Of a stretch of 32,079 nucleotides of DNA, positions 2,076-23,933 are shown piece by piece. Under the pieces are notes generated by a model that was given only the letters and a program-made list of their open reading frames with translations, made no database searches and had not been told where the DNA came from. Every line of letters begins with the position of its first letter. The first letter of the stretch is position 1. Made by a program: the position numbers and the translations under genes. The stretch comes from Rhodospirillaceae bacterium (GTDB taxonomy: Bacteria > Pseudomonadota > Alphaproteobacteria > Rhodospirillales > JABHCV01), in assembly GCA_014382375.1 (NCBI GenBank), contig JACNJU010000095.1:1-32079 (forward strand), written 5' to 3'.

Positions 2076-4336
2076 TGACTTACCTTGACACGGAAGTATC
2101 CGGTGAAGCCGGAACTGAAAAGCTCTATAAAATCATCGACGCCTTGATGTGTCAGGTTGAACGCAGCATGGACGGGCAGGGGAACTCCTATTCCCTTTTT
2201 CAAACCGCAACTGTCCTGGAAGACAAAGTCAAGGTTCGTACGGCTGAACTTGAAACAGCCCTGAACAGGCTGGAAAGCACTAATAGAGAATTGAACCGGG
2301 CCAACAGCGAGGCGGAAACGGCAAGAATTCGCCTGCTGGAAGCTGTTGAAAGTATTTCTGACGGTTTTGTCCTTTTTGACTGTGATGAAAAGCTGGCGCT
2401 AAGCAACACCCGCTTTATGGATTTCTGGGGAAACGCCAAGGAAGGAAAACCTACTGGCGTTACTTTTGAAGAACACATCAAACAGGTGGTGAGCAAAGGT
2501 TTAATCGCCGACGCTGGAAGCGACCCTGAGAACTGGATTAAGGCAAGACTGGAACGCCACCGCAACCCTGGCGATCCCTTTGTTCTGAAACTGGCCGACG
2601 GGCGCTGGCTGCGGGTCGACGAACGCCACACAAACGATGGTGGCACCGTCGGCATTTACACCGATATCAGCGACATCAAGCATCAAGAAGAACAGCGTCG
2701 ACAAAAGGAACTAGCCGAAAAATCGGAATTACTGCAATCCTCCCTGGATAACCTGACGCAGGGCGTATCGGTTTTTGATAAAGACCTGCAACTCGTCGCC
2801 TGGAATGAGCGCTTCATTGAATTGCTACAATTGCCGGAAGGCATGGTTCAACAAGGCACGCATTATGAAGATTATATGGCCTACAACATTCGCCGCGGGG
2901 AATACGGCGGCGGCGATCTGAATGCCTTCAAAAAGCGTATGGAACGGGCCAAAAATTTTGAACCGCTTGCGATTGAATACATCCGGCCTGACAGCAGTTC
3001 TCTTGAAATCAGGCGAAACCCCATGCCGGGCGGTGGCTTTGTCACCACGTATACCGATGTCACAGAATCCAGAAAAGCCGCCGAAGAACTGCGGGAATCA
3101 AAAGAAAACCTGGAACGCCGTGTCAAAGGGAGGACGGCCGAACTAACGGACCTGAACCAGAAACTGGTGCAGGAAATTGAAGAAAGAACGATTATTGAGG
3201 AACAACTGCATCTGGCGAAAACGGAAGCCGAAGAAGCCAACATCAGTAAAACCAAATTTCTCGCCGCCGCCAGCCATGATCTTTTACAGCCGCTGAATGC
3301 CGCTCGCCTGTTCACGTCCGCCCTGGTGGATCGCAAACCTAGCGGCAAAGAAGGGGAATTAACGGCGGGAATTGATGGTGCACTACGTGGCGTGGAAAGT
3401 ATGCTGAATGCTCTGCTGGACATCTCCAAGCTGGACGCGGGCGCTGTCCCTATTGAAACGACGGACTTTCCCCTTTCCTCTATTCTCAACCGTATTATCG
3501 CCGAGCATGTTCCAATCGCCTTAGAGGCCGGACTGGATTTCAAGTGCGTTCCCTGCAAGGCCATCGTCAGAACGGATAGAAAGCTCCTCGGACGAATTGT
3601 TCGCAACCTGATAAGCAATGCCATTCGCTATACACCGAAAGGGAAAATCCTCGTCGGGTGCAGAAAGAAAAATGAGATCGTCAGACTGGAAATATGGGAT
3701 ACAGGCGTTGGCATCTCGGAAGATTTACGCGACGAAATTTTTGAAGAGTTCAGGCAGCTTGGTAATGAAACCAGGGAAGGTGACAAGGGGGTTGGACTTG
3801 GCCTGGCTATTGTCAAACGCATTGCTCAAATACAGGACCATCCGGTCGGGGTGCGCTCAGTCCCTGAGAAAGGATCTGTATTTTATGTCGACCTGCCCCT
3901 GGGAAAAGAAGAAGCCAAGAGCGCTGAAACATCTCGTTCTTTAAGCGGAGTTGAAAATAAAATACCGGGGACAAAAGTTCTCGTTATTGATAACGAACAA
4001 ACAATCCTCGATGGCATGGAATCCCTACTTAAGGGCTGGGGCTGCACTGTTGATACCGGATTGAACATCGAAACCGTGCAGCAAACAGTTACGTCGGCGC
4101 ATGACAACCCGGATCTTATCATCATTGATTATCATCTGGATGACGGCGAAAACGGCATAGATGGCATTGCCGCCCTTCATAAGACATTAGCCCCCGACAT
4201 TCCGGGAATCGTTATCACTGCCGATAGAACCGAAGAAATCAAAGCTGCTGTTGAAGGCAAAGGCCTTTACTTAATGAACAAACCCGTTCGTCCCGCCAGG
4301 TTACGGGCGCTGATTGGTCACATTCGCTCAGAATAA
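2075..4336 (+). CDS. NahK/ErcS'-like hybrid sensor histidine kinase
   Basis: 753 residues from the ATG at 2075; an in-frame TTG one codon earlier is less likely. Domain order, numbered from the TTG: N-terminal coiled coil (about 45-90), two PAS domains (about 90-200 and 220-330), a second coiled coil (335-390), HisKA with ASHDLLQPLN and the phospho-acceptor His near 402, HATPase with N-box NLISNA (512-517) and G-boxes DTGVGI and GVGLGLAI, then a receiver domain with Asp near 686. There are no transmembrane segments, so the input is cytoplasmic, fitting control by the upstream FIST protein. This architecture matches NahK (ErcS') of Pseudomonas, which sits near the ethanol-oxidation genes. It probably passes phosphate through an Hpt protein not encoded here, or to the neighbouring response regulator. 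Its 3' end overlaps the convergent regulator gene by 19 bases. Confidence 0.85.
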   Translation: MTYLDTEVSGEAGTEKLYKIIDALMCQVERSMDGQGNSYSLFQTATVLEDKVKVRTAELETALNRLESTNRELNRANSEAETARIRLLEAVESISDGFVLFDCDEKLALSNTRFMDFWGNAKEGKPTGVTFEEHIKQVVSKGLIADAGSDPENWIKARLERHRNPGDPFVLKLADGRWLRVDERHTNDGGTVGIYTDISDIKHQEEQRRQKELAEKSELLQSSLDNLTQGVSVFDKDLQLVAWNERFIELLQLPEGMVQQGTHYEDYMAYNIRRGEYGGGDLNAFKKRMERAKNFEPLAIEYIRPDSSSLEIRRNPMPGGGFVTTYTDVTESRKAAEELRESKENLERRVKGRTAELTDLNQKLVQEIEERTIIEEQLHLAKTEAEEANISKTKFLAAASHDLLQPLNAARLFTSALVDRKPSGKEGELTAGIDGALRGVESMLNALLDISKLDAGAVPIETTDFPLSSILNRIIAEHVPIALEAGLDFKCVPCKAIVRTDRKLLGRIVRNLISNAIRYTPKGKILVGCRKKNEIVRLEIWDTGVGISEDLRDEIFEEFRQLGNETREGDKGVGLGLAIVKRIAQIQDHPVGVRSVPEKGSVFYVDLPLGKEEAKSAETSRSLSGVENKIPGTKVLVIDNEQTILDGMESLLKGWGCTVDTGLNIETVQQTVTSAHDNPDLIIIDYHLDDGENGIDGIAALHKTLAPDIPGIVITADRTEEIKAAVEGKGLYLMNKPVRPARLRALIGHIRSE

Positions 4337-4980
4337 GCTTTGAAACCGACATCCTTGGCCATCAGGACGGCTTGTGTGCGGCTGAATACCTGAAGTTTTC
4401 TCAGTATCGCAGAAATATGCGCCTTGACGGTCGATTCCTTGATGTCCAGGTCATAGGCGATAATCTTGTTCGGCTTCCCTTCCACCAGCAAGTGGAACAC
4501 CTTGGTTTCCGCAGCCGTTAAGGATTTCATACGTTCCAGTAATTCAGGATCGCCGCCCCCGCTCTCACTGGCCATAGCAACTTCCAGGTCGGTTTCCTCA
4601 GGATGGTATACCTCGCCCGCCATAACTGTTCGTATCGCAGCCTGCATGCGTTCACGGGAGATCGCTTTGGGAATGAACCCCGCTGCACCGTATTCGATGA
4701 CCTTCTCGACGGCTGTTGCATCAGCCGATCCGCTGACAATGACAATGGGCGTTGCCGGGGAAAGTTTGCGAAGTTCAACCAGGCCTGAATATCCTTCAGC
4801 ACCGGGCATATGGATATCAAGCAGAACCAGGTCAAGCTCCTGGTCTTCGGTCATGACGGCGCGTGCTTCATCAAGGTTTCCGGCCTCAATGATGTCAGAT
4901 TCTTTGAACCCGCTTTCGACAACCTGACGCATGGCATCACGAAAAAGAGGATGGTCATCCGCAATCAGTATTCGGACCAT
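4318..4980 (-). CDS. NarL/LuxR-type response regulator (ErbR/AgmR-like)
   Basis: 220 residues starting MVRILIADDH at 4980. The frame is open 36 codons further upstream but those codons are not protein-like, and AGAG sits at ribosome-binding distance before this ATG. The receiver domain (1-125) has the acidic pair D8-D9, phospho-acceptor Asp at 55 in LLDIHMPG, and a Lys in the FIPKAIS loop. The C-terminal GerE-type helix-turn-helix (about 155-215) has LTAAETKVFHLL and STVKAHISAILRKL. Regulators of this kind (ErbR, AgmR, PedR1) switch on PQQ alcohol dehydrogenase genes in Pseudomonas. The position between the sensor kinase and the dehydrogenase operon supports the same job. The likely targets are the promoters of the dehydrogenase and cytochrome operons; this is inference. 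Confidence 0.85.
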   Translation of the reverse strand: MVRILIADDHPLFRDAMRQVVESGFKESDIIEAGNLDEARAVMTEDQELDLVLLDIHMPGAEGYSGLVELRKLSPATPIVIVSGSADATAVEKVIEYGAAGFIPKAISRERMQAAIRTVMAGEVYHPEETDLEVAMASESGGGDPELLERMKSLTAAETKVFHLLVEGKPNKIIAYDLDIKESTVKAHISAILRKLQVFSRTQAVLMAKDVGFKAYSERM

Positions 4981-5107: not shown

Positions 5108-6850
5108 TTATTTGGGCATTTTGAAGACCCAAACGCTGCCACCCTGGTTCAGGTGTTTGATGCGCTTGGCGACATCACCACCCCAAAGCGGAACAGCACC
5201 ACCCCAACCGGAAACAACGGCGAAGTACTGCTCGCCATTCTCTTCCCAGGTAACGGGCTGGCTGACGATGCCGGAACCGGTTTGGAACTTCCACAGAACC
5301 TTGCCGGTCGCGTCGTCAAGGGCCATGAAGTAACCTTCAGGATTGCCTGTGAAGACAAGTCCACCAGCCGTCGTCATGACACCGGCCCACAAAGGAGCGT
5401 TGTTCTTCAGTTCCCACTTGATGGAACCGTCCATCGGATCGATGGCTTTCAAAGAACCGATATAATCTTCAAACAGCGGTTTGATGGTAAAACCAGCCCC
5501 CAGATAGGCAGCACCCTTCTTGTAGGTGACGGGTTCATTCCACAAGTCCATGCCCCATTCGTTGGACGGAACATAGAACAGTCCGGAATTCTGACTGTAC
5601 GCCATCGGCATCCAGTTCTTACCACCCAGGAAAGAAGGAACGGCGAAGATCGCCTTACCTTTTTTGCCATCGGCAGATTTGGTCGGATCACCAGCACGGT
5701 TGGAGTCGATGAAGTTCGGACGACCCGTTTTTACGTCAATGCTGGATGCCCAGCTGATCTGTTCAACGAACGGTGTCGCGTTCTGCAGTTTACCGTTTGT
5801 GCGGTCCATAACGTAGAAGAAGCCGTTACGGTCGGCGGTGGCAGCAAGTTTTTTGCCACCAGCGTTGAACGACACGACTTCGTTGACGCCATCGTAATCC
5901 CAGCCTTCCCAAGGCGTGGTTTGAAGGTGCCATTTGATTTCACCGTTATCCGGGTTAATCGCCAGACGCGAAGCGGCATACAGGTTGTCGCCTTTACGAA
6001 GATGCGAGTTCCAGGGGGCCGGGTTGCCGGCACCGTAGAAGATGGTGTCGGTTTCATCGTCGTAGTTGCCACCGAGCCAGGTCGCACCGCCGCCGGACTT
6101 CCACATGTCGCCAGGCCAGGTTGCATTCAGTTTACCGGTCATCGTAGACGGCTTGCCGTTCAGCATACCCATGTGACCTTCAATTGTCGGGCGAGACCAG
6201 ACCAGTTCACCGGTTTCAGCGTTGCGGGCTTCAACTTTGCCGACGATACCGAATTCACCACCAGAGACACCGGTAATGACATTGCCTTTGACGATGAACG
6301 GAGCAGCCGTAAAGGAATAACCGGCTTTGTAATCGCCGAGTTTTTTCTTCCATTTGACCTTACCGGTCTTACGGTCCAGGGCAACCAGTTTGGCGTCCAG
6401 AGTGCCGAAGTACACCAGATCGCCATACAACGCGGCACCACGGTTGATCACGTCACAGCAAGGCATGATTCCATCTGGAAGACGCGCATCATACTGCCAC
6501 AGTTCCTCACCGGTTTTCACATCAACGGCGAAAATACGAGAATAAGAACTCGTAACATACATAACGCCATCATAAATGAGCGGCTGCGATTCCTGACCGC
6601 GCTGCTTTTCACCGCCGAACGAGAATGACCAAACAGGCAGCAATTTTTTGACGTTGGATTTGTTTACGATTTTCAGCGGGCTGAAGCGTTGCCCCTTGCG
6701 GCCCATACCGTTGGTGACGATTTGATGGGTTGTTTTTGAATCGTTGGCGATGTCTGCATCGGTAACACCAGCCTGTGCCTGCGAAGACATCGAAGAAACA
6801 GCAATTGCCGCGCCTCCTGCCAGGGCTAATGTTGTTTTAATGAAATTCAT
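5108..6850 (-). CDS. Lanthanide-type PQQ-dependent alcohol dehydrogenase (PedH/ExaF-like quinoprotein)
   Basis: 580-residue periplasmic quinoprotein that oxidises alcohols to aldehydes and passes electrons to cytochrome c. It has a Sec signal peptide (about 1-27) and an eight-bladed PQQ propeller. The adjacent cysteines C131-C132 form the usual disulfide ring over PQQ. The metal-site residues are E199 (GGEFG), N276 (GAGNPAPW) and D318 in WDYDGVN. D320, two residues after the catalytic Asp, is the extra acid found in XoxF, ExaF and PedH; calcium enzymes have Ala, Ser or Thr there. This makes lanthanide dependence very likely. Length and the PCCDVINRG context favour the ethanol-type clade over XoxF, but substrate range is not certain. 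There is no fused cytochrome domain, so the separate cytochrome c-550 upstream is the likely acceptor. The start has a strong ribosome binding site (GGGAGG, about 10 bases before ATG) and the gene ends in a strong terminator, both fitting high expression. Confidence 0.93.
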
Positions 6851-6979
6851 ATCTTTTCCTCCCTCTTGTAATTAAAGAAATAATGAATGCGTCCATTGTT
6901 CGAACTGAAGAATTTCCTATTGTCCAGTATCACCATGTGTTTGATAGGGACAATTAGCAAATAGTCTAAGGTGCTGGGG
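6851..6979 (-). promoter_or_regulatory. Putative promoter/operator region of the alcohol dehydrogenase gene
   Basis: This 129-base gap separates the dehydrogenase from the metallohydrolase gene and is long enough for its own promoter. It holds three copies of ATTGTYC: 6895-6901, 6919-6925 and, inverted, 6948-6954. The last two form a 7-bp dyad with a 22-base spacer. They could be binding sites for the nearby response regulator or another activator. No convincing -35/-10 pair was recognised. Confidence 0.4.
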
Positions 6980-7933
6980 TCAATCGATGCGGCGATCAAC
7001 TGCTTTGGGCAATTTGCGTTTAACGATTTCCGGCCACAAATGATGGACGGAACGGCGGTATTCCGCCTCAACAGTCGCTAAACTTTTGAACTTATTAGGC
7101 AAATCAAGGTTCATGACTTCCGTCATTTCCAACCCTTGGTCCGCAGCGTCTTCCAGCACCTTCACCAACCACTGAAGATATTCACGGGTCTGTCTGATGG
7201 CCTCGTTATCACCGATTACCGGACCATGGCCGGGAACGATCAGGCGGAAGTCTATTTCTTCCAGTTGATCCAGGCTTTCCAGCCATTTACCGATGTCAGC
7301 GTGAGGAGTTGTCGGGGCGCGATCCATAAACACCTGGTCGCCTGCGAACAGAACGCCGGTGGTTTCATCCAAAATTGCCAGGTCAGCGATATCGTGGCCT
7401 TGAAGGGCAATGTAGCGCAAACGATGTTCACCGATTTGCTCTCCTGATCGGTTTACTGATTTGCCCGGCACTATAACTTCTGTGCCTAACATCCAGTCGC
7501 CGACAAGCCGATACAGGTTCTCGTTCATGGCATCACCCTCGCTGCGGATCGCTGCAATGGTTTCCGGTAATGCCCAGATAGGAGCTCCGGAAAATGCCTG
7601 ATTACCGAGAAAGTGATCGGGGTGATGATGGGTAACGATCACCCTGTTAATGGGTAGCGGCGTGACCTCGTTGATGGCGTTACGCATTTCGTGGCCATAA
7701 CGGGCGGAAGGCCCGGTATCGATAACGATAACGCCCTCTTTGGTTATGATGAATCCCGTATTGACGATATTACCGCCATTCTCCAGGCTGAAATGCTCTT
7801 TTGAGCCCTGGAAGATATACGTGTCTTCAGCGACTTTTACCGGCTTAAGCTTATAGGAAAGCGACTCGGCAAATGTCGGCGCTATCGCCAGGAGACAAAA
7901 AATAAAGGACAAAAAGATAAGTGGGCGTTTCAT
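6980..7933 (-). CDS. Quinoprotein relay system metallo-beta-lactamase-fold hydrolase (SoxH-related)
   Basis: 317 residues with a signal peptide (about 1-22), so probably periplasmic. The zinc-binding pattern of the metallo-beta-lactamase fold is complete: HHHPDH at 102-107, H180, D199 (FAGDQ) and H236 (PGHGP). It belongs to the SoxH-related zinc metallohydrolases found with PQQ dehydrogenases and with SoxYZ-like carriers, and the carrier gene lies directly upstream with a 49-base gap. The substrate is unknown. By analogy with SoxH and other thioester or thiol hydrolases it may release a group bound to the carrier cysteine; that is inference. It is the fourth gene of the minus-strand operon beginning with the cytochrome. 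Confidence 0.85.
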   Translation of the reverse strand: MKRPLIFLSFIFCLLAIAPTFAESLSYKLKPVKVAEDTYIFQGSKEHFSLENGGNIVNTGFIITKEGVIVIDTGPSARYGHEMRNAINEVTPLPINRVIVTHHHPDHFLGNQAFSGAPIWALPETIAAIRSEGDAMNENLYRLVGDWMLGTEVIVPGKSVNRSGEQIGEHRLRYIALQGHDIADLAILDETTGVLFAGDQVFMDRAPTTPHADIGKWLESLDQLEEIDFRLIVPGHGPVIGDNEAIRQTREYLQWLVKVLEDAADQGLEMTEVMNLDLPNKFKSLATVEAEYRRSVHHLWPEIVKRKLPKAVDRRID

Positions 7934-7982
7934 AGTGGTATACTGCCTTCTATTGGGCTGATAATTCCCTGTGGGCTATTTT

Positions 7983-8771
7983 TTAGGATTTCGGGGCTTT
8001 TTCGACCCAGGCGCTGATTTCGTTACCGTTGTTGTCCATTCCTGAAATGGAATACCCACCTGTTTCTCCAACCGCATCGACCTCAAAGGTGATCACCGGA
8101 TCCTCACTGACGGGCTCGAAGGTTTGAAGATGCGCCAACTCCACACCTTCTGCGTTCTTGATGCTGAGGTGCTCCATGAAAAAAGCCGGAATATTTCCAG
8201 ATAATCCAGTATCCATGGGATGGATGATACGGGTACGAATGCGATCAACACCGTTTTCACGAGGCCAAATCTGGGCCTGTACATTGTTTAGATTGCTTTC
8301 CCAATCGGCGGCCGCCATCTGAACGCTTGGCACTGTGCAACCACCACCCGAAGCATCAACATATTTCCCCCCAAGATGCCACACGCCATCTTTCGTGCGA
8401 GCAGCAGCACGGATCACGCTTGCCTGCCCCATCTTCACCCGAAGGGCAAAATACGGACGGGCTTTATTAGGGGTAAATTTTGCCGTTTTCAGAATCGGGT
8501 TCAGGTCAACAATCAGAATGATTTCCGTTACGTCATCCAGACCGTCTACCCGGACGGAAACCGGTACCTGAAAATTTCCTTCGGCGCTATCCGGCGCATC
8601 AACCTTGACGCGGTCATCAAAAATCACCTGGCCCTGCTCCAGGATTTCCTCGTACACCCAGCCCCACATGGGTGAGTTAAACGGATCTTTGGGAGGCGCG
8701 CCAGCACTGGCGACATTCGCAAGAACAAGGACCGATAAAACCATCGGTGCAATCCGGAAAAGCCGTCCCAT
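7983..8771 (-). CDS. Quinoprotein dehydrogenase-associated SoxYZ-like carrier
   Basis: 262-residue exported protein (signal peptide about 1-23). The N-terminal half resembles SoxY and ends in SGGGC with Cys at 145, matching the position of the swinging-arm cysteine of SoxY. The C-terminal half (about 165-260) resembles SoxZ, so the two subunits are fused. Such fusions are a known family found beside PQQ dehydrogenases, but their cargo is not established. In the Sox pathway the cysteine carries sulfur intermediates; no soxA, soxX or soxB is present in this window, so thiosulfate oxidation is unlikely. A good ribosome binding site (GGGGGAC) precedes the ATG. The hydrolase downstream is the natural partner. 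Confidence 0.85.
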   Translation of the reverse strand: MGRLFRIAPMVLSVLVLANVASAGAPPKDPFNSPMWGWVYEEILEQGQVIFDDRVKVDAPDSAEGNFQVPVSVRVDGLDDVTEIILIVDLNPILKTAKFTPNKARPYFALRVKMGQASVIRAAARTKDGVWHLGGKYVDASGGGCTVPSVQMAAADWESNLNNVQAQIWPRENGVDRIRTRIIHPMDTGLSGNIPAFFMEHLSIKNAEGVELAHLQTFEPVSEDPVITFEVDAVGETGGYSISGMDNNGNEISAWVEKAPKS

Positions 8772-8791
8772 TTGTTTCGTCCCCCTATTGA

Positions 8792-9664
8792 TTATTGAGC
8801 AGTGGAACCAAGCAGATCATCCGGTGGAGGATTATACTTGATACCGTGAGTCTTAAAAATTTCCTTTATGACGCCGTCTTTCACCATTGCCGCCAAAATA
8901 TCTCCGACGAAATAACCAAGCTGGCGATATGTATGTTTGACTGCGGCCCCCAACAGCCAATGGCTCCTCAACCCCCGCATCGGTACCATCCCGGTGCGAA
9001 AAGAATCGCGATGTTCCTTCAAGCCTGCTTCAAGTTGAGTCAGCGGACCGGCCGCCCCGGCGAGTTCTCCTGCAATCAGCGCATCGGTCACTTTGCGGGG
9101 GCTGTGAAAATGAACTACATTTTTCAGGATCGCCCCACCCAGGGCCGATGCCAGGTAAAAGTCGGCAATCGTGTCCAGTTCCACACCAATCTTGTCGAAT
9201 CGGAAGACGGCAATTGTAGCTTGTTCCCCCACCATTTCAGGGTTCCAGGCAAGCCCGACCCGTTCCTGGTAATAGGCACCGAAAAAAACCACCTGATCGT
9301 TTCTCAGGGAAAATTCCCGATCATAAGGGACATGCAACATCACATCCGCCACCTGTCCCCCCAGGTAATGCCCCTTCCAGATGGCGTTTCTCAGATCGTC
9401 TTCGACATTTTCATCTGCCGTTTGCTCAATAAGATTGAGCCGTAAATTCATTTTTTTAGCTAAGTATCGGGCGATGTCCACATCGACCCCTGTCAGTTTG
9501 CCGTCCTTGCGATAGGAGAAGGGAAAGTAGTCGCGATAGACGGCTATGCCGATTTCGCCTTTTTCCGTGATTTCATCAAGAGAAAGCGCAAACGCCGAAG
9601 TGACGCTTGCGCTCAGTTGCAGGAAGAAAATCCAGAAAATCCAAAAAACTTTAAATCGCCGCAT
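8792..9664 (-). CDS. PedG/MxaJ-like periplasmic solute-binding protein of the quinoprotein system
   Basis: 290-residue protein with a signal peptide (about 1-27) and the family 3 solute-binding fold (ITEKGEIGIAVYRDYFPFSY near the start, then DVDIARYLAKKM). It has no transporter genes next to it. Related proteins (MxaJ, XoxJ, PedG) are encoded beside the cytochrome and dehydrogenase of PQQ systems. They are thought to help dehydrogenase maturation or electron transfer, not uptake. It lies 20 bases upstream of the SoxYZ-like gene and 26 bases after the cytochrome gene, so it is co-transcribed with both. AAGGAC is at good ribosome-binding distance. The exact function is not known. Confidence 0.8.
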   Translation of the reverse strand: MRRFKVFWIFWIFFLQLSASVTSAFALSLDEITEKGEIGIAVYRDYFPFSYRKDGKLTGVDVDIARYLAKKMNLRLNLIEQTADENVEDDLRNAIWKGHYLGGQVADVMLHVPYDREFSLRNDQVVFFGAYYQERVGLAWNPEMVGEQATIAVFRFDKIGVELDTIADFYLASALGGAILKNVVHFHSPRKVTDALIAGELAGAAGPLTQLEAGLKEHRDSFRTGMVPMRGLRSHWLLGAAVKHTYRQLGYFVGDILAAMVKDGVIKEIFKTHGIKYNPPPDDLLGSTAQ

Positions 9665-9690
9665 GCTTTGTCCTTAAGCTCACCGAAGAA

Positions 9691-10140
9691 TTATTCCTCA
9701 TCCTCGGGCTTTGAATCGATATAAGAGCGGATGGCCCACAACCCTTCCTGAGAGATGATGCCATCAAATTTAGGCATGTAAACCTTACCGTCGCGAACGG
9801 CGCCGCCACGGACCCGTTCTATATACCATTCGTCGCCGTCCATAGTCGCTTCAAGGTAGCGCAAATCGGGGGCGATACCGCCGGACATGACTTCAAGACC
9901 ATGGCAACGGGCGCAGTTCTGAATGTAACCTGAAGCGCCTATCTCAATGGCCAGATCCTTGAGAGCCGCATCGTCTCTGAAGGGGTTTTCTTCGGTCCAT
10001 TCTTCACCCAGAACCGGTAAACCATCCGTATTCATTGCCTGTGGCACTACATCGCCATGAGACCAGGCCTGAGTGCTCAAGCCGAACGTTGCTACGCTCA
10101 CTATCCCCAATAGCGCGATGACACGAATGATACGAAACAT
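9691..10140 (-). CDS. pedF: Cytochrome c-550 (PedF-like), electron acceptor of the quinoprotein dehydrogenase
   Basis: 149 residues from the ATG at 10140; an in-frame TTG at 10143 is less likely because GGAG is better spaced for the ATG. A signal peptide (about 1-28) is followed by a single haem domain with CARCH at residues 76-80. The probable axial Met is near 122 in VYMPKF. The family is the small cytochrome c encoded with PQQ alcohol dehydrogenases (PedF, ExaB). It takes electrons from the reduced dehydrogenase in the periplasm and delivers them toward the terminal oxidase. It is the first gene of the operon, so its promoter at 10141-10268 probably drives the binding protein, SoxYZ-like and hydrolase genes too. 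Confidence 0.88.
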   Translation of the reverse strand: MFRIIRVIALLGIVSVATFGLSTQAWSHGDVVPQAMNTDGLPVLGEEWTEENPFRDDAALKDLAIEIGASGYIQNCARCHGLEVMSGGIAPDLRYLEATMDGDEWYIERVRGGAVRDGKVYMPKFDGIISQEGLWAIRSYIDSKPEDEE

Positions 10141-10166
10141 CAATTTACTCCATAACCTGACTACAT

Positions 10167-10180
10167 TGCCGATATCGGCA
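10167..10180. promoter_or_regulatory. Perfect 14-bp palindrome upstream of the cytochrome operon
   Basis: TGCCGATATCGGCA is a perfect palindrome 27-40 bases before the cytochrome ATG. A position this close to the start codon suits a repressor operator or an mRNA hairpin in the leader. The binding protein is unknown. Confidence 0.45.
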
Positions 10181-10216
10181 TGGTGGTTATATATCCTGAA
10201 AACGAATTTATTTCTG

Positions 10217-10264
10217 CTCGACTTTGGTCGGAGCGTCCTGTTTTTTTACTCGACTTTGGTCGGA
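10217..10264. promoter_or_regulatory. Two identical 16-bp direct repeats, each with an internal dyad (putative operator)
   Basis: CTCGACTTTGGTCGGA occurs at 10217-10232 and again at 10249-10264, exactly 32 bases apart, which is close to three helical turns. Each copy contains the inverted repeat CGAC-N4-GTCG. The pair lies 77-124 bases upstream of the cytochrome ATG, a usual place for activator sites, and just after the MoaD-like gene. A 13/16 match lies upstream of the second cytochrome gene (23424-23439), so this is probably a shared operator. The NarL-type regulator at 4318-4980 is a candidate binder. Confidence 0.55.
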
Positions 10265-10268
10265 TGTT

Positions 10269-10526
10269 TTACTTTTTTCCTCCGGCCACGGGGGGCCATA
10301 TGGCAAGGGCGTCACCGTCTTTTAGTGTTTTTACAGCACTTTCGCTAGGGGCCAGATAATGCCCATTGATGAGGACCAGGTGACAGTGTTCGGGCGGCAC
10401 GCCGTGTTTGGCGAGTACGCCTTCGACGCTGGTTTCTTGCTCGATCTCGACCTCGACTTCATTCTTCTCGGCATGGTCGGGCAGATACTGGCCCAGCGAG
10501 GCATAGAGTTTTAGCGTCACCTTCAT
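10269..10526 (-). CDS. MoaD/ThiS-family ubiquitin-like protein associated with AOR
   Basis: 85 residues starting MKVTLKLYASLGQYLP, the classic beta-grasp MoaD start. The C-terminus reads PPVAGG followed by two lysines. MoaD-type proteins carry sulfur as a C-terminal Gly-Gly thiocarboxylate for pyranopterin synthesis; here two residues follow the diglycine, which would have to be removed or bypassed. The gene follows the FAD oxidoreductase by 5 bases and is the last of the AOR set, so it probably serves the tungsten-pyranopterin cofactor. MoaD-like genes are common in bacterial AOR operons. An upstream in-frame extension overlapping the oxidoreductase gene is not protein-like and was not used. 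Confidence 0.8.
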   Translation of the reverse strand: MKVTLKLYASLGQYLPDHAEKNEVEVEIEQETSVEGVLAKHGVPPEHCHLVLINGHYLAPSESAVKTLKDGDALAIWPPVAGGKK

Positions 10527-10531
10527 CGCTT

Positions 10532-11779
10532 TTAGGCCCCATCGCCGCGGGTGCAGTCGATGTAGGCCTCCACGACCCGGTTGGGGTCGGACATCAGGCG
10601 TTCTTTCCACGCGCCCAGGTTCACCGGCGTCATGATCAGGCCGCGCATGATGCCCATTTGATCCGTACGCCCCACCATCACCGCGCCGACCAGATGATCG
10701 CCATCGAAGTTCAGCAGCGTGTAGCGGTAATTCTCATTATCGATCTGCTGGGCACTCTCGCCGCCATCCTTGCCCTGCCACAGGCCGAACGAGCACGAGA
10801 TCAATCCCAACGTGTCCAGAACATTCATGTTCAGGCTGCCCCGGTAATCGACGCCCTTTTCAGCCATGCTCATGGCGGCAATGCGGCCATGCTCCACGCC
10901 GGTGGGCTGCACGGCATGAACGGACTTTTCACCGGTGGAATAGTCTGGTCCCTGCGCCACGTCACCGGCGGCAAAGATGTTGTCGATGCTTGAGCGAAGG
11001 TTGTTGTCGACCAGAATGCCGTCCTCGATCTCAACTCCCGCCCCGTCCAGAAAGTCCGTGTTGGGGCGCACGCCCGTTGCCACCACAATCAGGTCCGCCT
11101 GAATAACGTCGCCTGTATCCACATTGACCGACAGTTTCCCGTCCGTTTCATCAACGGAGTTAACCCGTGCGGAGGTCAACACATTAACGCCCTTCTCCAG
11201 ACACCAGTTCTTGATCATGTTACCGGCGTTTTGATCCATCATGCGCGGCACCATGCGGTCGCCGGCTTCAACGACGGTCAGGTTCGCACCCGAAAGCGCC
11301 AGGGCCTCCATGATGATACAGCCGATAAAGCCAGCCCCCATCAGCACCACATCAACACCCTCACCGGTAATCTTGGCAATGTTACGGGCGTCTTCCAAAG
11401 TCCAGCAATGGTGGATATTGGGCCTGTCCAGCCCTTCGATCGGCGGCTTGATGGGATGAGAGCCCGATGCCACGAGAAGCTTGTCATAAGGCAGCTTCTC
11501 GCCGTTATCCAGCGTCAGGGTATTGTCACCAACAGAGACGCTTTCGGCATGTGCCTGAATGCGGTTAATGCCTAAGTTTTCGAAGTGATTGTCGCCTTTG
11601 CGAAGGTAGACACCTTGTTCCGGAACCTTACCAATCAGGAAATAAGGGATCGCCATGCGACCATACGGCGGCTCGACCTCGCCATCGACCAGAGTAACCG
11701 AGGACTCCGGGTCGATTTTACGAAGGGTCTCAGCAGCGGTTACGCCGGACGGTCCGGCGCCGACAATCACGTGTTGCAT
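10532..11779 (-). CDS. NAD/FAD-dependent oxidoreductase, AorC-like subunit
   Basis: 415-residue pyridine nucleotide-disulfide oxidoreductase-fold flavoprotein. The FAD-binding GAGPSG lies at residues 7-12, the NAD-binding GAGFIG is near 148-153, and the second FAD motif IFAAGDVAQ is near 270. There is no CxxxxC redox disulfide in the N-terminal region. In Aromatoleum the AOR complex has such a flavoprotein (AorC) linking the tungsten and Fe-S subunits to NAD. The gene order ferredoxin, AOR, this gene, MoaD-like supports that role. It is separated from the AOR gene by a strong hairpin terminator, so its level may be set lower than that of the other two subunits. No signal peptide; cytoplasmic. 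Confidence 0.82.
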   Translation of the reverse strand: MQHVIVGAGPSGVTAAETLRKIDPESSVTLVDGEVEPPYGRMAIPYFLIGKVPEQGVYLRKGDNHFENLGINRIQAHAESVSVGDNTLTLDNGEKLPYDKLLVASGSHPIKPPIEGLDRPNIHHCWTLEDARNIAKITGEGVDVVLMGAGFIGCIIMEALALSGANLTVVEAGDRMVPRMMDQNAGNMIKNWCLEKGVNVLTSARVNSVDETDGKLSVNVDTGDVIQADLIVVATGVRPNTDFLDGAGVEIEDGILVDNNLRSSIDNIFAAGDVAQGPDYSTGEKSVHAVQPTGVEHGRIAAMSMAEKGVDYRGSLNMNVLDTLGLISCSFGLWQGKDGGESAQQIDNENYRYTLLNFDGDHLVGAVMVGRTDQMGIMRGLIMTPVNLGAWKERLMSDPNRVVEAYIDCTRGDGA

Positions 11780-11792
11780 AAGTAAACTATCC

Positions 11793-11843
11793 TAAAAAAA
11801 AGAAAGCCCCACACCCTACAGACTTACGCCCAAGGGTGTGGGG
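11793..11843 (-). terminator. Hairpin terminator between the AOR and FAD-oxidoreductase genes
   Basis: A perfect 10-bp stem, CCCCACACCC (11807-11816) with GGGTGTGGGG (11834-11843), has a 17-base loop. On the minus strand it is followed by CTTTC and an eight-T run (11800-11793). It starts 22 bases after the AOR stop and ends shortly before the oxidoreductase start at 11779. It should end or reduce transcription between the two genes. Confidence 0.85.
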
Positions 11844-11864
11844 ACTTTTCAGATAACCTGGCCT

Positions 11865-13712
11865 CTAAAGGTCGAGGCGGCTCAGAGTTTCGTTGGACGG
11901 TACACCGTCAGGCGTCCAGCCACGAAGCTCGTAGTACTCCGGCAGCATCTTGCCAAGCTCGCTGACTTTGCCTTCAGCCGGGCCGGTTTTGGCTGCGTCT
12001 TTCAGCAAACGCTGAGGCAACGTGTCGTCAGCAGCCGTAAAGCCTGCATCCATGTTGAACTTGCGCTCAAGGTTCCAGATGCGTTCGCCAACTTCCATCA
12101 AGGTTTCAGAAGACCAATCACCTTCAAGGTCACCATCGATCATGGGGGCGACGTCATCCAGCGTCAACGCGAAGGACGTAAAGATGCAGATACCGGCAGC
12201 ATCAAACGCAGCTGTCGCATCCTGGAATGCCTTCACCAGACCGGCTTTGCCGTCGGGTGTCAGCGGATCGGTCTTTTCAGGAATACCCAGAACTTCGGAA
12301 GCTACGGTGTAGCTGCGAAGGTGACAGGCGCCACGGTTGGATGTGGCATAGGTCAGGCCCATGCCCTGAATACCGCGCGGGTCGTAAGCCGGGAATTCCT
12401 GGCCTTTAACAGACATAGACAGTTCCGGATGACCGTATTTTTCGCACAGGCGTTTGGAGCCAAGGCCGATTTCCTTACCAAAACCTTCACCAAGGCCCGT
12501 CATATCGCAGATTTTGCAAAGGGCTTCGGCGTTGCCGAACTCAAGCTGAATGCCACCGGTGTTTTCGGTCGTAATGGCACCAATCTGGAACATTTCCATC
12601 GCCGCACCGATTGTGGTGCCAAGCGTGATCGGATCCATGCCGTATTCATTGCAGATGTAGTTGCAATAGGTCAAAGCTTCCAGATCGTTGACACCGGTTG
12701 CTGCACCCAGAGACCAGGCGTTTTCGTATTCCAGACCACCTTCGACGCCGTGGTATTTCGGCTCTCCGGCAACGGAGAAGTGGTTCGGGTCCATCTGGGA
12801 ACGACGCTGACACGAGATCGGGCAACCGAAACACGCTGCGTTGGAAACCAGGTTGGCTTTGCCGTCACTTTCGCGCGGCGTCGTCATGGCTTCACCACCA
12901 ATGTCGGCTGCGCCTTCGAACTGAACTTCCGTACCGTTACGGGTCGGCAGAGCGCCGGTTTCGTTGATGACGTTCATCAGCACCTGGGTGCCGTAGGTCG
13001 GCAGGCCTTCACCGGTAACCGGGTTGTCAGCCAGGATCTGGTTGCAAGCGCCAGTGGCCTGCATGAACTTCATCGGGTCGCTTACCTGAATACCCTGGGT
13101 ACCACGGCAAGCAACGGCTTTAAGGTTTTTCGAGCCCATAACCGTACCAACGCCGGAACGACCAGCTGCGCGGTCCTTATCGTTGACGATAGCGGCATAC
13201 AAGTTGCCGTTCTCACCAGCTTGCCCAATAGAGGCGCAACGGATGTCATTATCGCCGCGAGCTGCACGCAACATGTCTTCCGTATCCCATACCGATTTAC
13301 CCCACATAGCGGAGGCGTCTTTCAGTTCGGCTTGATCGTTTGTGATATCCAGGTAGACCGGGCTGGCGGACTTGCCTTCGAAAATGACCATGTCCCAACC
13401 GGCATTCTTCAGTTCAGCACCAAAGAAACCGCCAGAGTTTGAACAGGCAATTGCATTGGTCAATGCACCCTTGGTGATAACCGTCCAGCGGCCCGACGTC
13501 GGCGCAGCGGTACCAGTCAGCGGACCTGTGGCGAAGATCAGTTTGTTGTCAGCCGACAGAGGGTCAACCTTCGGATCGCATTCTTCAGTGTAATACTTGG
13601 TCGCCAGACCACGGGAACCAAGATACTTCTTGGCCCACTCCATATTGAGCGGTTCGCTTTGGCACGTGCCGTTCGTCAGGTTTACTCGCAGTACTTTTTG
13701 TGTCCAGGACAT
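11865..13712 (-). CDS. Tungsten-containing aldehyde:ferredoxin oxidoreductase (AorB-like)
   Basis: 615 residues, the usual AOR length, with the N-terminal AOR domain (1-210: GSRGLATKY, GPLTGT, GFFGAELK) and the helical C-terminal domains. The [4Fe-4S] cluster cysteines are C294, C297 and C301 (CFGCPISC) with C509 as the fourth. H464 in GACHLRSY is a plausible active-site residue. The enzyme oxidises aldehydes to carboxylic acids using a tungsten bis-pyranopterin cofactor. No signal peptide, so cytoplasmic. A ferredoxin-like subunit gene lies 39 bases upstream. The ribosome binding site GGGAG is clear. In this locus it probably takes the aldehyde made by the PQQ dehydrogenase. Tungsten rather than molybdenum is inferred from the family. 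Confidence 0.92.
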   Translation of the reverse strand: MSWTQKVLRVNLTNGTCQSEPLNMEWAKKYLGSRGLATKYYTEECDPKVDPLSADNKLIFATGPLTGTAAPTSGRWTVITKGALTNAIACSNSGGFFGAELKNAGWDMVIFEGKSASPVYLDITNDQAELKDASAMWGKSVWDTEDMLRAARGDNDIRCASIGQAGENGNLYAAIVNDKDRAAGRSGVGTVMGSKNLKAVACRGTQGIQVSDPMKFMQATGACNQILADNPVTGEGLPTYGTQVLMNVINETGALPTRNGTEVQFEGAADIGGEAMTTPRESDGKANLVSNAACFGCPISCQRRSQMDPNHFSVAGEPKYHGVEGGLEYENAWSLGAATGVNDLEALTYCNYICNEYGMDPITLGTTIGAAMEMFQIGAITTENTGGIQLEFGNAEALCKICDMTGLGEGFGKEIGLGSKRLCEKYGHPELSMSVKGQEFPAYDPRGIQGMGLTYATSNRGACHLRSYTVASEVLGIPEKTDPLTPDGKAGLVKAFQDATAAFDAAGICIFTSFALTLDDVAPMIDGDLEGDWSSETLMEVGERIWNLERKFNMDAGFTAADDTLPQRLLKDAAKTGPAEGKVSELGKMLPEYYELRGWTPDGVPSNETLSRLDL

Positions 13713-13751
13713 CTGTTTCTCCCTAGTTTATGTTTTATATTGATAAATTAA

Positions 13752-14234
13752 TTAATCGGCTGACGCCTGATTTCCGGCGTCCGTTTTTTCCGCCCAGTGG
13801 CGCATCTTGTCCATGCCAGCGCTTTCAGCTTCGATGAAAGACAGGGCAGGTGTGGGGCAAACCTTGACGCAATCCGGGTCGCCGCCGCACAAATCACATT
13901 TGTCGACTTTCGCCGTGATCGAATTGTAATTGATCGTGCCGAACGGGCAGGCGATCGTGCACACCTTGCAGCCAACACAGACTTCAGCCGTAACCTCTTT
14001 GGCGCCAGTCGCCGCATTGACCGAAATGGCGTCTACAGGACAAGCCTGCAAACACCATGCATCGGCACACTGAGTGCAGACATACGGCACATTGCGGTTG
14101 GTCTCATCAAATTTGAAAACCTTGATGCGGGATTTAGATGGATTGAAAGCCCCTTCGTGATGATAACTGCATGCCATTTCGCACTGATGACACCCAGTAC
14201 ACTCACTGGCATTGATATGGAGGACTTTTACCAT
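13752..14234 (-). CDS. Four-cluster ferredoxin-like subunit (AorA-like)
   Basis: 160 residues from the ATG at 14234; an upstream GTG at 14279 would add 15 non-conserved residues. Sixteen cysteines fall in four groups: CTGCHQCEMAC, CTQCADAWCLQAC, CVGCKVCTIAC and CDLCGGDPDCVKVC. This is the pattern of a polyferredoxin carrying four [4Fe-4S] clusters, like AorA of Aromatoleum and DMSO reductase-type subunits. The gene lies directly before the AOR gene and should carry electrons from the tungsten subunit to the FAD subunit. No Tat or Sec signal, so cytoplasmic. Confidence 0.87.
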   Translation of the reverse strand: MVKVLHINASECTGCHQCEMACSYHHEGAFNPSKSRIKVFKFDETNRNVPYVCTQCADAWCLQACPVDAISVNAATGAKEVTAEVCVGCKVCTIACPFGTINYNSITAKVDKCDLCGGDPDCVKVCPTPALSFIEAESAGMDKMRHWAEKTDAGNQASAD

Positions 14235-14337: not shown

Positions 14338-14643
14338 TTATTCAGCCAGGGAGCGGCAACGAATATCTCTTTTACCGCTAACCACGACGAGACGCTGCCA
14401 GGGTGTGAAAATCTGACACAGCTGACGGGGGTTTGAGACCCACCAAATATTGATATCAACACCGATGGAATCTTCATTTTTGAAGCTAACGGTGACGGGG
14501 CCGGAATCGGGCTCAAGAACGGCGCTGCCCCCCGGCGCAACCAGTTTTATTTTGTTCTTAGATTGATTGTCGAAAGTGATTGTCTCCGCCGAAAATGCCG
14601 GAGACGCTATAAAGACAATGAGGAGAGCCATGATCCATTTCAT
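14338..14643 (-). CDS. Small exported protein of unknown function
   Basis: 101 residues with a clear signal peptide (MKWIMALLIVFIASPAFSA). The mature part is short, probably all beta, with two cysteines near the C-terminus (in LCQIF and DIRCRS) that could form a disulfide. I recognise no family. It lies 104 bases upstream of the ferredoxin subunit on the same strand, so it may be the first gene of the AOR transcript, although the AOR proteins are cytoplasmic and this one is exported. It is divergent from the ABC-type binding protein at 14765. Confidence 0.6.
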   Translation of the reverse strand: MKWIMALLIVFIASPAFSAETITFDNQSKNKIKLVAPGGSAVLEPDSGPVTVSFKNEDSIGVDINIWWVSNPRQLCQIFTPWQRLVVVSGKRDIRCRSLAE

Positions 14644-14764: not shown

Positions 14765-15979
14765 ATGAAAACCGGTAATTGGGATATCAACGTCGGCAGA
14801 TTTTTTCCTATCGTACTCTGTCTTTGGACGGCGATTCTCTGCTTGAGCGCCGGTCGTCCCCTTGAAGCCGCAACTCTAGTCCCCATCGACGTTGAAATCA
14901 TCTTCCTGAGCCAGAAAGTCGACCTGCCACCTGCCTTGTCGAACATCGACAGCGTCCCCGATGACGCCGGTCTGATGGGCGCCCGCATCGCTATTGGCGA
15001 CAACAACACAACAGGGCGATTCTTAAAACACAAATACAGCCTGATTGAAGAAACCCTTGCCGCAGACGCCAACGTCGCCGAAGCCTTCGCCCGGTTGGCG
15101 TCGGAGGGCGGGAAAGTGTTCATTCTCGACCTGCCTGCCTCTTCGCTCGATATCGTCAGGAACCATGCAAAGGCCGGGCAATCCCTGTTGTTCAACACCC
15201 GCGCCACGGATGACCGGTTCCGCTCAAAAGATTGCCATGACTTTCTACTGCATACCATTCCAAGTCGCGCCATGCGTACAGATTCGCTCGCCCAATATTT
15301 GATTACCAAACGTTGGAAGGATTGGTTGCTGATCGTTGGGTCGCGCCCTGAAGATGAGTTGTTTGCCCAGGCGATTAGGAAATCGGCGAAAAAGTTTGGG
15401 GCAGATATTATTAAAGAGAAAAAATGGACCGGCGAACATGATGCCCGTCGCACGGCCCAAACTGAGGTTCCCTTGTTCACACAAGGCATCGACTACGACG
15501 TCCTGATGGTAGCGGACGAAATCGGCGACTTCGGCGATTATTTGATGTACCGCACCTGGACACCGCGTCTTGTCGCCGGAACTCAGGGCCTTGTGGCCAA
15601 GGCCTGGGGACGCCCGATCGAACAATGGGGCGCGGCACAGCTTCAGGAACGCTTTCTTAAAGAATCGAACCGCTGGATGCTTTCCCGGGATTACGCTGCA
15701 TGGGCGGCTGTGCGGACCATCGGAGAGGCCGTCACGCGAACCAAATCAGGCAGCACTGAAGAAATCAGAAAATTCATTGCGTCGGACAAATTTCAGCTCG
15801 CCGCCTTTAAAGGGCGCAAGTTGAGTTTCAGAACGTGGAATGGCCAGTTACGCATGCCCGTTGCAGTTATGTCCGCCCGCTCCGTCGTCGCTCAGCCCCC
15901 CTTAAAGGGATACCTTCATCAAAGAACCGAACTCGACACCTTGGGGTTGGACAAACCTGAAAGCAGTTGTGGAAAATGA
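14765..15979 (+). CDS. ABC transporter substrate-binding protein of the PQQ alcohol dehydrogenase system
   Basis: 404 residues with a signal peptide (about 1-38) and a periplasmic-binding-protein type 1 fold resembling branched-chain amino acid binding proteins (DDAGLMGARIAI, then VFILDLPASSLD). It belongs to the family that co-occurs with PQQ alcohol dehydrogenases. It heads an operon in which the next gene overlaps it by four bases (ATGA) and which continues through a propeller, an ATPase and an ABC-2-type permease. Comparable modules (PedA1A2BC in Pseudomonas putida, Lut in Methylobacterium) are linked to lanthanide supply. Since the local dehydrogenase is of the lanthanide type, the same role is inferred here. 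The ligand itself cannot be read from sequence. Confidence 0.82.
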   Translation: MKTGNWDINVGRFFPIVLCLWTAILCLSAGRPLEAATLVPIDVEIIFLSQKVDLPPALSNIDSVPDDAGLMGARIAIGDNNTTGRFLKHKYSLIEETLAADANVAEAFARLASEGGKVFILDLPASSLDIVRNHAKAGQSLLFNTRATDDRFRSKDCHDFLLHTIPSRAMRTDSLAQYLITKRWKDWLLIVGSRPEDELFAQAIRKSAKKFGADIIKEKKWTGEHDARRTAQTEVPLFTQGIDYDVLMVADEIGDFGDYLMYRTWTPRLVAGTQGLVAKAWGRPIEQWGAAQLQERFLKESNRWMLSRDYAAWAAVRTIGEAVTRTKSGSTEEIRKFIASDKFQLAAFKGRKLSFRTWNGQLRMPVAVMSARSVVAQPPLKGYLHQRTELDTLGLDKPESSCGK

Positions 15980-16941
15980 TCAAAACGACCTTCTCCGCCT
16001 TTTTGTTTCTTCTGACATTCACCGCCGCCGCTACCGCGCAAACGGCCTATGTCACCAATGAAAAGGACGACACCCTATCCGTCATCGACTTGACAAAAAT
16101 GGAAGTCATCACGACGATCGAAGTGGGCCAACGCCCCCGCGGCGTCTACCTGAGCCCGGATAACAAGACGCTCTATCTGTGTGCCTCTGATGATGACACC
16201 ATTCAGGAAATTGACGTTGAAACCCTTAAGGTGCGCCATGAACTTCCCTCGGGCGCAAATCCGGAAACCTTCGCCATCAGCGCCGATGGTAAGAGGATAT
16301 ACACCTCCAACGAGTCAGATAACGTTGTCACGGTGATCGATCTTGAAAACCGCAAACTGGCAGGGCAGATCGATGTCGGCGTCGAACCGGAAGGCATGGC
16401 CGTCAGCCCGGATGGCAAGATCGTTATCAATACATCCGAAACCACCAATATGGCGCATTGGATCGACTCCGACTCATTGGAAATTTTCGACAACTCGCTC
16501 GTCGATCAGCGGCCCCGCCATGCGGAATTTGACAGTGAGGGAAAACAACTCTGGGTGTCGGCAGAAATCGGCGGCACGGTTAGCGTCTTCGATGTGAAGA
16601 ACCGTCAGGAAATAGCCAAAATTCCTTTCGCCATTAAAGGCATTCATAAAGACAGGGTGCAACCGGTCGGCATTCGCCTTTCCAAAAACGGGCGCTACGC
16701 CTTCATCGCCCTTGGCCCCGCCAACCACATTGCCGTCGTCGACGCCAAGACCTTCGAGGTAACAAAATACATCCTGGTCGGTCGCCGTGTCTGGCATATG
16801 GCCTTCACCCCGGACCAGAAAAAGCTGCTCACCACCAACGGCGTTAGTGGGGATGTCACCGTCATCGACGTTGACGACCTGAAAGCCGTTAAATCCATCA
16901 AGGTTGGACGCTTCCCCTGGGGCGTCGCCATTCGTCCTTAA
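15976..16941 (+). CDS. PQQ-dependent catabolism-associated YVTN beta-propeller protein
   Basis: 321 residues from the ATG at 15976, which overlaps the previous stop by four bases; an upstream in-frame TTG is unlikely. Signal peptide about 1-21, then repeated YVTN/WD40-like blades of about 42 residues (AYVTNEKDDTLSVIDL, IYTSNESDNVVTVIDL, LLTTNGVSGDVTVIDV), making a seven-bladed propeller. It has no PQQ or haem motif. The family is always found near PQQ dehydrogenases, and in this operon it is a periplasmic partner of the ABC module. A binding or scaffold role is likely; the ligand is unknown. Confidence 0.85.
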   Translation: MIKTTFSAFLFLLTFTAAATAQTAYVTNEKDDTLSVIDLTKMEVITTIEVGQRPRGVYLSPDNKTLYLCASDDDTIQEIDVETLKVRHELPSGANPETFAISADGKRIYTSNESDNVVTVIDLENRKLAGQIDVGVEPEGMAVSPDGKIVINTSETTNMAHWIDSDSLEIFDNSLVDQRPRHAEFDSEGKQLWVSAEIGGTVSVFDVKNRQEIAKIPFAIKGIHKDRVQPVGIRLSKNGRYAFIALGPANHIAVVDAKTFEVTKYILVGRRVWHMAFTPDQKKLLTTNGVSGDVTVIDVDDLKAVKSIKVGRFPWGVAIRP

Positions 16942-16960
16942 TCAAAATTTGGAGTTCTAC

Positions 16961-17395: not shown

Positions 17396-17431
17396 TGCTC
17401 CTTCAACAAAGCTTCGCTAGATGGAATTGAA

Positions 17432-21775: not shown

Positions 21776-21784
21776 TGCCCATCA

Positions 21785-22765: not shown

Positions 22766-22876
22766 ATAACGACTTACCCATTTCAACTTGCAGATGTTCT
22801 TGCCTTTATTGCTGAAGTTAGGATAGCACGTTGTCCTCCTGTTACCATTAGACCTTTGATGAAGGCCCTCCAGATA
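22766..22876. promoter_or_regulatory. Divergent promoter region
   Basis: A 111-base gap separates the importer operon (minus) from the rhodanese-like gene (plus) and must hold both promoters. ATG at 22859 is an alternative start of the plus-strand gene. No clear operator or -10/-35 pair was recognised. Confidence 0.4.
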
Positions 22877-23416: not shown

Positions 23417-23423
23417 ACGAGGC

Positions 23424-23439
23424 CTCGACTTAGGTCTTA
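23424..23439. promoter_or_regulatory. Third copy of the CTCGACTT-type operator motif
   Basis: CTCGACTTAGGTCTTA matches the repeats at 10217 and 10249 at 13 of 16 positions. It lies 54-69 bases upstream of the second cytochrome c gene, a position similar to that of the repeats before the first cytochrome gene. Confidence 0.45.
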
Positions 23440-23492
23440 TTGACGTCTCCCATCCCCTGTCCGATAAGAACAGCTGGTAAATATTCAATTGG

Positions 23493-23903: not shown

Positions 23904-23933
23904 CCATCTGATGAACGTGTAAAGTGCTCTGCC

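Follow-up and report, generated by a model that had tools for sequence, protein, structure and literature searches.

Gene content of the locus

This report concerns a gene cluster in a 32,079-nucleotide stretch of DNA from a Rhodospirillaceae bacterium (assembly GCA_014382375.1, contig JACNJU010000095.1, positions 1 to 32,079; hereafter the window), in which a pyrroloquinoline quinone (PQQ) alcohol dehydrogenase of the lanthanide type shares a locus with a predicted tungsten aldehyde oxidoreductase (AOR). The minus strand between 4318 and 14234 carries, in gene order, aorA, aorB, aorC, aorD, pedF, a family-3 solute-binding gene, a SoxYZ-like gene, a SoxH-related gene, the PQQ alcohol dehydrogenase gene and an ErdR-like gene. 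The dehydrogenase and Aor blocks are co-directional, with pedF between them, and the coordinates that a first-pass annotation had given for both were borne out; it had overlooked aorD. The plus strand flanks the cluster with nosP and a NahK-like kinase gene at one end and the genes of a PedA1A2BC-like transporter (14765-18978) at the opposite end. The features are as follows.

849-2075, plus: NosP-like protein for sensing nitric oxide (NCBIfam NosP 485.5 bits, cut-off 450)
2072-4336, plus: hybrid histidine kinase of the NahK/ErcS type (near_NosP_CTERM 458 bits, cut-off 400; NahK/ErcS' model 649 bits, under its cut-off of 1500)
4318-4980, minus: ErdR-like response regulator (Response_reg and GerE; best NCBIfam model ErdR, 185 bits, under its cut-off of 390; start ATG 4980)
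5108-6850, minus: lanthanide-type PQQ alcohol dehydrogenase, PedH/ExaF type (family score, PedH as best structure, D-Y-D signature)
6980-7933, minus: quinoprotein relay system zinc metallohydrolase 1, SoxH-related (TIGR04558 424.6 bits, cut-off 300)
7983-8771, minus: quinoprotein-associated SoxYZ-like carrier (TIGR04557 202 bits, cut-off 140)
8792-9664, minus: periplasmic family-3 solute-binding protein (PF00497 39.9 bits, cut-off 26.4; relatives in other ped loci)
9691-10140, minus: cytochrome c550 PedF, likely electron acceptor of the dehydrogenase (TIGR04494 197.9 bits, cut-off 122; start ATG 10140)
10269-10526, minus: AorD-like sulfur carrier of the MoaD/ThiS family, likely in maturation of the tungsten cofactor (PF02597 36.5 bits, cut-off 22.5; moaD_arch under cut-off)
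10532-11779, minus: AorC-like flavin adenine dinucleotide (FAD) subunit, predicted to reduce nicotinamide adenine dinucleotide (NAD) (best PDB chain 8C0Z_E, E 5.3e-126; R41-M42 and R179 present)
11865-13712, minus: AorB-like catalytic subunit, with predicted tungsten pterin and 4Fe-4S cluster (PF01314 456 bits, PF02730 264 bits; 8C0Z_A, E 1.1e-279)
13752-14234, minus: AorA-like ferredoxin subunit with four predicted clusters (8C0Z_C, E 6.1e-66; 16 Cys)
14765-15979, plus: PedA1-like ABC substrate-binding protein (TIGR03863 480 bits, cut-off 414; architecture as in PedA1A2BC, PMC6839425)
15976-16941, plus: PedA2-like YVTN beta-propeller protein (TIGR03866 514 bits, cut-off 287)
17432-18178, plus: PedB-like ATP-binding subunit (TIGR03864 332 bits, cut-off 302)
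18175-18978, plus: PedC-like permease (TIGR03861 421 bits, cut-off 241)

The start of aorA was set at ATG 14234 from its likeness to the genome's second AorA copy. Signal peptides, judged by eye, are seen on the dehydrogenase, PedF, the SoxH and SoxYZ proteins and the binding protein, and none is obvious on AorA, AorB or AorC.

Identity of the two enzymes

The dehydrogenase scores 773.9 bits against the NCBIfam model PQQ_enz_alc_DH (cut-off 480). Its closest solved structure is PedH (6ZCV/6ZCW, 851 bits), with the calcium enzyme ExaA (1FLG) at 712 bits. The Asp-Tyr-Asp signature that the first-pass annotation had claimed is there: D318-Y-D320 aligns with D323-F-D325 of PedH, at a place where ExaA shows D-F-S. 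E199 and N276, which I take to correspond to other metal ligands of PedH, are in place along with D318, D320 and a vicinal Cys pair at 131. D-x-D is described as the diagnostic lanthanide motif (PMC11996626), and a member of this family bearing it is, by sequence, a dehydrogenase of the PedH/ExaF type and would be expected to use a lanthanide. It is accompanied by PedF and the PedA1A2BC-like transporter, as in a ped/exa cluster; the four-gene transporter of this type is reported to be required by Pseudomonas putida for lanthanide-dependent growth at low lanthanide (PMC6839425).

The Aor block is as complete as first claimed. AorA, AorB and AorC each have as their top PDB match the matching chain of 8C0Z, the AorABC enzyme of Aromatoleum aromaticum, and the AorB residues named in PMC10413684 are kept (R75, N92, G94, R181, A182, C294/C297/C301, E330, D360, H464, D504, I508 and C509; the histidine is numbered both 484 and 464 in that paper). 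AorA, AorB and the FAD subunit AorC lie together in one operon-like block with the pterin residues, the FS0 cysteine and the His/Glu active-site residues, as in class III enzymes. Judged by its sequence, the block at 10269-14234 encodes AorABC(D) in full and corresponds to the NAD-linked tungsten enzyme; tungsten and NAD are predicted from the A. aromaticum AorABC, which contained tungsten and no molybdenum (PMC6365974), used NAD and oxidised many aldehydes (PMC10413684).

Recurrence of the pairing

The pairing is common to several lineages and is not specific to the strain. Within the order, 317 genomes were surveyed (AOR at E up to 1e-100, dehydrogenase at E up to 1e-150): AOR is present in 93 and the dehydrogenase in 20; 10 have both, against the 5.9 that the two rates predict. 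Five genomes, spread over four family groups of the order, have AOR at pedF (the window's, G043, G090, G254 and G256). In the window (with aorD between), G043, G254 and G256, AorABC is immediately upstream of pedF; in G090 a single cytochrome gene separates AorC from pedF, and AorB is present as a 78-amino-acid piece cut by the end of the contig. The distance from AOR to the dehydrogenase is at most 10 kb in the window, G043, G254 and, by way of the AorB piece, G090. In G256 the two are 36 kb apart, yet AorABC adjoins pedF. Nine order genomes with both genes remain when the window's is excluded; in three of them AOR and the dehydrogenase are no more than 10 kb apart, against 0.064 expected at random (Poisson 4e-5, kinship ignored).

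For a wider view, 398 genomes were drawn from the phylum (AOR at E up to 1e-150, dehydrogenase at E up to 1e-80); 8 have AOR and 95 the dehydrogenase. Four genomes besides the window's have both AOR and a close relative of the dehydrogenase: the two are 36 and 38 kb apart in G335 and G560 and on separate contigs in G545 and G558.

Genomes of named organisms were scanned as well. Out of 594 confirmed AOR matches the best 80 were kept, and eleven markers of alcohol oxidation were sought within 10 kb of each. At least one marker is present at 11 of these 80 loci and two or more at six, in three proteobacterial classes. A Thauera sp. metagenome-assembled genome (MAG; L103) has a D-F-D dehydrogenase, pedF, soxH and soxYZ near AOR. 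Other marker-bearing loci come from Macromonas nakdongensis (L107), Litoricola (L102), Azospirillum soli (L056, one marker) and gammaproteobacterial MAGs; in a Burkholderiaceae MAG (L111) a D-F-D dehydrogenase is the only marker near AOR. The dehydrogenase adjoining AOR in L101 belongs to another type and shares 38% identity with that of the window. When all 103 distinct AOR loci are considered, some of which were picked for a known alcohol dehydrogenase in the genome, 16 have at least one marker and 11 have two or more. Sequence extends 8 kb on both sides in 41 of the 103, and six of those 41, the window among them, have two or more markers. The order survey and the named-genome loci together rule out a co-occurrence limited to the source strain.

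A separate observation concerns an open reading frame of about 96 amino acids with the motif KEM..[TS]H.[ED]FFR, found in 12 loci (10 distinct; L012:5017-5307, L029-L033, L035-L039 and L094) near aorC/aorD of AORs unlinked to pedF. The L012 copy has no Pfam match, and L094 has a pedC-like gene nearby. By motif the frame was found neither in the pedF-linked loci (window, L021, L022, L024, L025) nor in the remaining loci, some of them unlinked.

AOR and ExaC

Many relatives have near the cluster a gene for ExaC, the NAD-dependent acetaldehyde dehydrogenase that usually serves the aldehyde step. The ExaC query used here was the G253 protein beside that genome's ped genes (947.6 bits, cut-off 900), and proteins at least 72% identical to it were counted as ExaC-type, the next best being 45%. 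By this measure, 12 of the 20 dehydrogenase genomes in the order have ExaC. It lies on the same contig as the dehydrogenase in 9 of the 12, about 4-15 kb away, and on a separate contig in G073, G117 and G175. The source genome has no ExaC-type protein, its best match being 40% identical.

AOR linked to pedF is found in 5 of the 8 dehydrogenase genomes without ExaC and in 0 of the 12 with it (Fisher p 0.0036, kinship ignored). The contrast can be seen within one genus, where G253 has ExaC by its ped genes and no AOR at threshold, and G254 and G256 have AOR and no ExaC. Unlinked AOR and ExaC occur together in G107, G139, G148 and G175. The genomes with neither ExaC nor pedF-linked AOR are G066, which has a piece of AOR elsewhere, and G101 and G103, to which I return below. 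The contigs carrying the dehydrogenase are short in G066, G101, G103 and G117.

The search for ExaC (E up to 1e-190) was extended over the phylum to 32 of the 94 other dehydrogenase genomes, those whose dehydrogenase is at least 62% identical to the window's. ExaC is present in 26 of the 32. G558 has AOR, and ExaC was not found there in this subset search. A strict mutual exclusion of AOR and ExaC across the proteobacteria is ruled out, since G335, G545 and G560 carry both; these three belong to one family group, placed with betaproteobacteria by the position of their AorB in the tree described next.

Origin of the pedF-linked copies

In a tree of 71 AorB rows, built by a quick method with branch support from the approximate likelihood-ratio test (SH-aLRT) only, the window's copy groups with standalone AorBs from its genome and genus. 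The pedF-linked G043 copy groups with that genome's standalone one, to which it is 95.8% identical, and those of G254 and G256 fall together inside their own genus. Over the same tree, the presence of at least one marker changes at least 12 times. The AorC tree places the window's copy with that of G082, of the same genus; the G043 copies lie close together there without being sisters. Repeated recruitment is one reading. One insertion followed by gene conversion is as good a reading, because the AorABC-pedF order is shared.

It is tempting to see in all this a recurrent two-metal module. In several proteobacterial lineages, a tungsten AorABC operon would have taken over the aldehyde step of lanthanide alcohol oxidation, and in some it would have displaced ExaC. 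Its source would be a standalone AOR of the same lineage, repeatedly recruited or copied over by gene conversion, and growth on alcohol would then depend on both a rare earth and tungsten. I offer this broader idea tentatively, putting it a little short of an even chance.

A proposed pathway

I propose that the locus specifies an alcohol pathway of the ped/exa type, with the aldehyde step carried out by an NAD-linked tungsten AOR instead of ExaC. This seems to me likely, though I infer the metals, the substrate, the compartment, the coupling and the regulation. Both enzymes match characterized counterparts over their whole length, with the active-site residues kept. The two probably act in sequence, because their genes adjoin here and in some other bacteria. 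In the periplasm, the lanthanide-PQQ dehydrogenase would convert an alcohol, short-chain or aromatic, into its aldehyde, giving the electrons to PedF. The aldehyde would then enter the cytoplasm to be oxidized by AorB to the acid, with electrons relayed by the iron-sulfur clusters, first in AorB and then in AorA, to FAD in AorC, where NADH would form. Lanthanide would be imported by the PedA1A2BC-like transporter, tungstate would come from a TupA-like transporter encoded elsewhere in the genome, and NosP, NahK and ErdR would provide regulation. The division of electrons between cytochrome c and NAD, which the first-pass annotation had pointed out, is not peculiar to this pairing, since the ExaA/ExaC route also delivers electrons to both.

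If the proposal is correct, then the bacterial NAD-linked tungsten AOR gains a catabolic role in the use of alcohols, beyond the detoxification of aldehydes. Two unusual metals would be joined in one pathway, and growth on alcohols that depends on tungsten would be predicted for ordinary proteobacteria.

Alternative explanations

Several observations weigh against the proposed pathway, and they are best considered along with the alternatives that they favor. The main enzyme of the aldehyde step might be the alcohol dehydrogenase itself or some general NAD-dependent aldehyde dehydrogenase encoded elsewhere, leaving AOR only to detoxify surplus aldehyde. PedE and PedH also oxidize acetaldehyde, with a catalytic efficiency 10-15 fold below that for ethanol (PMC5487730), and detoxification has been described as the primary role of AOR (PMC10413684). 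The source genome has seven matches to PF00171 (Aldedh), all above the family cut-off and two of them partial. The earlier statement that an NAD-dependent aldehyde dehydrogenase is absent holds for the locus and for the whole window contig, where no PF00171 match was found; the seven matches lie elsewhere in the genome. Moreover, AOR and ExaC coexist in the three genomes of one family mentioned above, and several genomes have the dehydrogenase and neither enzyme: G101 and G103 in the order (no AOR at threshold) and G332, G519, G363, G415 and G611 in the phylum subset, at the thresholds used. From these genomes it follows that lack of ExaC does not require AOR; AOR can occupy the place where ExaC is missing. 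Nor is the association with ExaC absence as strong as the Fisher test makes it seem. The test is weakened because the linked dehydrogenases fall in one part of the dehydrogenase tree. The linked-AOR state changes only twice on that tree, which leaves two independent pairs, and ExaC runs opposite to AOR in an average of 1.8 of the 2 (sign test p 0.5). What speaks against this alternative is that in the order set AOR is linked to pedF only where ExaC is missing, and that the genome's aldehyde dehydrogenase closest to ExaC is 40% identical to it. On balance I consider it unlikely.

It is less probable still that the neighborhood is incidental, or that AOR here serves other aldehydes (e.g., those derived from amino acids, as in A. 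aromaticum) or acts as an acid reductase. This explanation draws on the 69 of the best 80 named-genome loci that have no alcohol-oxidation marker in the available sequence, many of these loci being short, and on the closeness of the window's AorB to standalone AORs of its own genus. One such copy is in the same genome, which has four AFOR_C matches, one of them in a second AorABCD block, its AorB 87.6% identical to the window's, with neighbors that are bamB/der-like and, further off, serA/serC-like (named by eye from translations). Reduction of acids by AOR is possible with strong reductants (PMC10413684). Against this explanation stand the position of AOR next to pedF, or one gene off, in four family groups and a linkage far above that of random placement; and a periplasmic alcohol dehydrogenase next door should produce aldehyde.

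The pathway might also run as proposed with one or both metals different in vivo, molybdenum in AorB or calcium in the dehydrogenase. A sequence cannot reveal metals, but the D-x-D signature, the PedA1A2BC-like importer, the metal content of the A. aromaticum enzyme and a TupA-like protein in the genome (238.5 bits, where the model requires 400; its neighbors, named by eye, are an ABC ATPase and a permease) make such a substitution highly improbable.

Two further points count against the sequential pathway. The sensitivity of the A. aromaticum AOR to oxygen is described differently in two papers, as insensitivity in extracts (PMC10413684) and as a half-life of 1 hour in air (PMC13328260). The other point is the supply of PQQ. 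The window's dehydrogenase is the sole PQQ alcohol dehydrogenase above the family cut-off in the source assembly (G000; 3.3 Mb in 205 contigs), and no pqqC was found there by family search (which matched no control genome) or by protein query (16 of 25 genomes positive), though a gap in the assembly is possible. By protein query, 15 of the 20 dehydrogenase genomes in the order have pqqC, and it was not found in the assemblies of G000, G043, G103, G107 and G148. The dehydrogenase may then need imported PQQ, and Gram-negative bacteria are reported to import PQQ widely (PMC12124388). As a side observation, G083, of the same genus as G000, has pqqC and no dehydrogenase at threshold, the converse of G000 and G043.

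Relation to known systems

The cluster resembles the ped/exa clusters of P. putida and P. aeruginosa in its PedH-type dehydrogenase, PedF, SoxYZ/SoxH-like and solute-binding partners, PedA1A2BC-like transporter and ErdR/NahK-like regulators. It differs in having AorABCD at pedF and in the absence of ExaC from the genome. With A. aromaticum AorABC(DE), of class III, it shares the three subunits, the FAD/NAD subunit, the conserved tungsten and iron-sulfur residues and a MoaD-like aorD, but here the genomic context of AOR is alcohol oxidation.

The closest precedent for the pairing is the Ald-xoxF3-mdh2 region of Methyloversatilis universalis FAM5, in which a tungsten AOR gene (Ald, METUNv1_590040) lies two to nine locus tags from those for XoxJ3 (590042), XoxG3 (590043), XoxF3 (590046) and Mdh2 (590049) (PMC5023235). 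The likeness is read from locus tags and table entries; this organism is a methylotroph, and its aldehyde is formaldehyde. According to the same 2015 paper, a tungsten-dependent aldehyde dehydrogenase had been predicted for conversion of formaldehyde. All five genes were more highly expressed on methanol than on methylamine, Ald by 2.6-fold in transcript (the table is ambiguous as to significance), and AldB, located elsewhere, changed 1.2-fold. The claim that no pathway with this pairing had been described was therefore too strong. Among the matches listed from the open-licence literature in PubMed Central, only that paper brings both enzymes together in the parts available. A 2026 classification of tungsten oxidoreductases (PMC13328260) includes one characterized class III enzyme, and its main text, as available, does not mention PQQ, lanthanide, quinoprotein or alcohol dehydrogenase. 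The parts are known, then, and the pairing was partly anticipated; the comparative case for functional replacement was not met with in that literature.

Other features of the window

Between aorD and pedF, at 10217-10263, there is a direct repeat of 15 bases in two exact copies. It is not significant over the window, where 7 matches were found with up to two mismatches and 6 of 100 shuffles reached 7. A promoter scan of the window gave results at the level of shuffled sequence, and a terminator scan gave 15, compared with 11.7 +/- 3.5.

Both flanks of the cluster have features that recur. The NosP-like gene also adjoins the cluster in several relatives. A small open reading frame at 14338-14643 has a start like that of a signal peptide and no family match, with counterparts beside ped genes in L023, L026 and L137 (35-48% identity). 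Further out, 20329-26977 encodes an Ssu-type ABC transporter with an NMT1-like binding protein, a cytochrome c, a NosR-like membrane iron-sulfur protein and ApbE; the NMT1/Ssu/cytochrome part of this region directly adjoins aorA in G254 and G256. The ends of the window are of a mobile type, with an ISL3 transposase at 12-737 and DUF5681, a DNA methylase and a resolvase/recombinase at 27204-31673.

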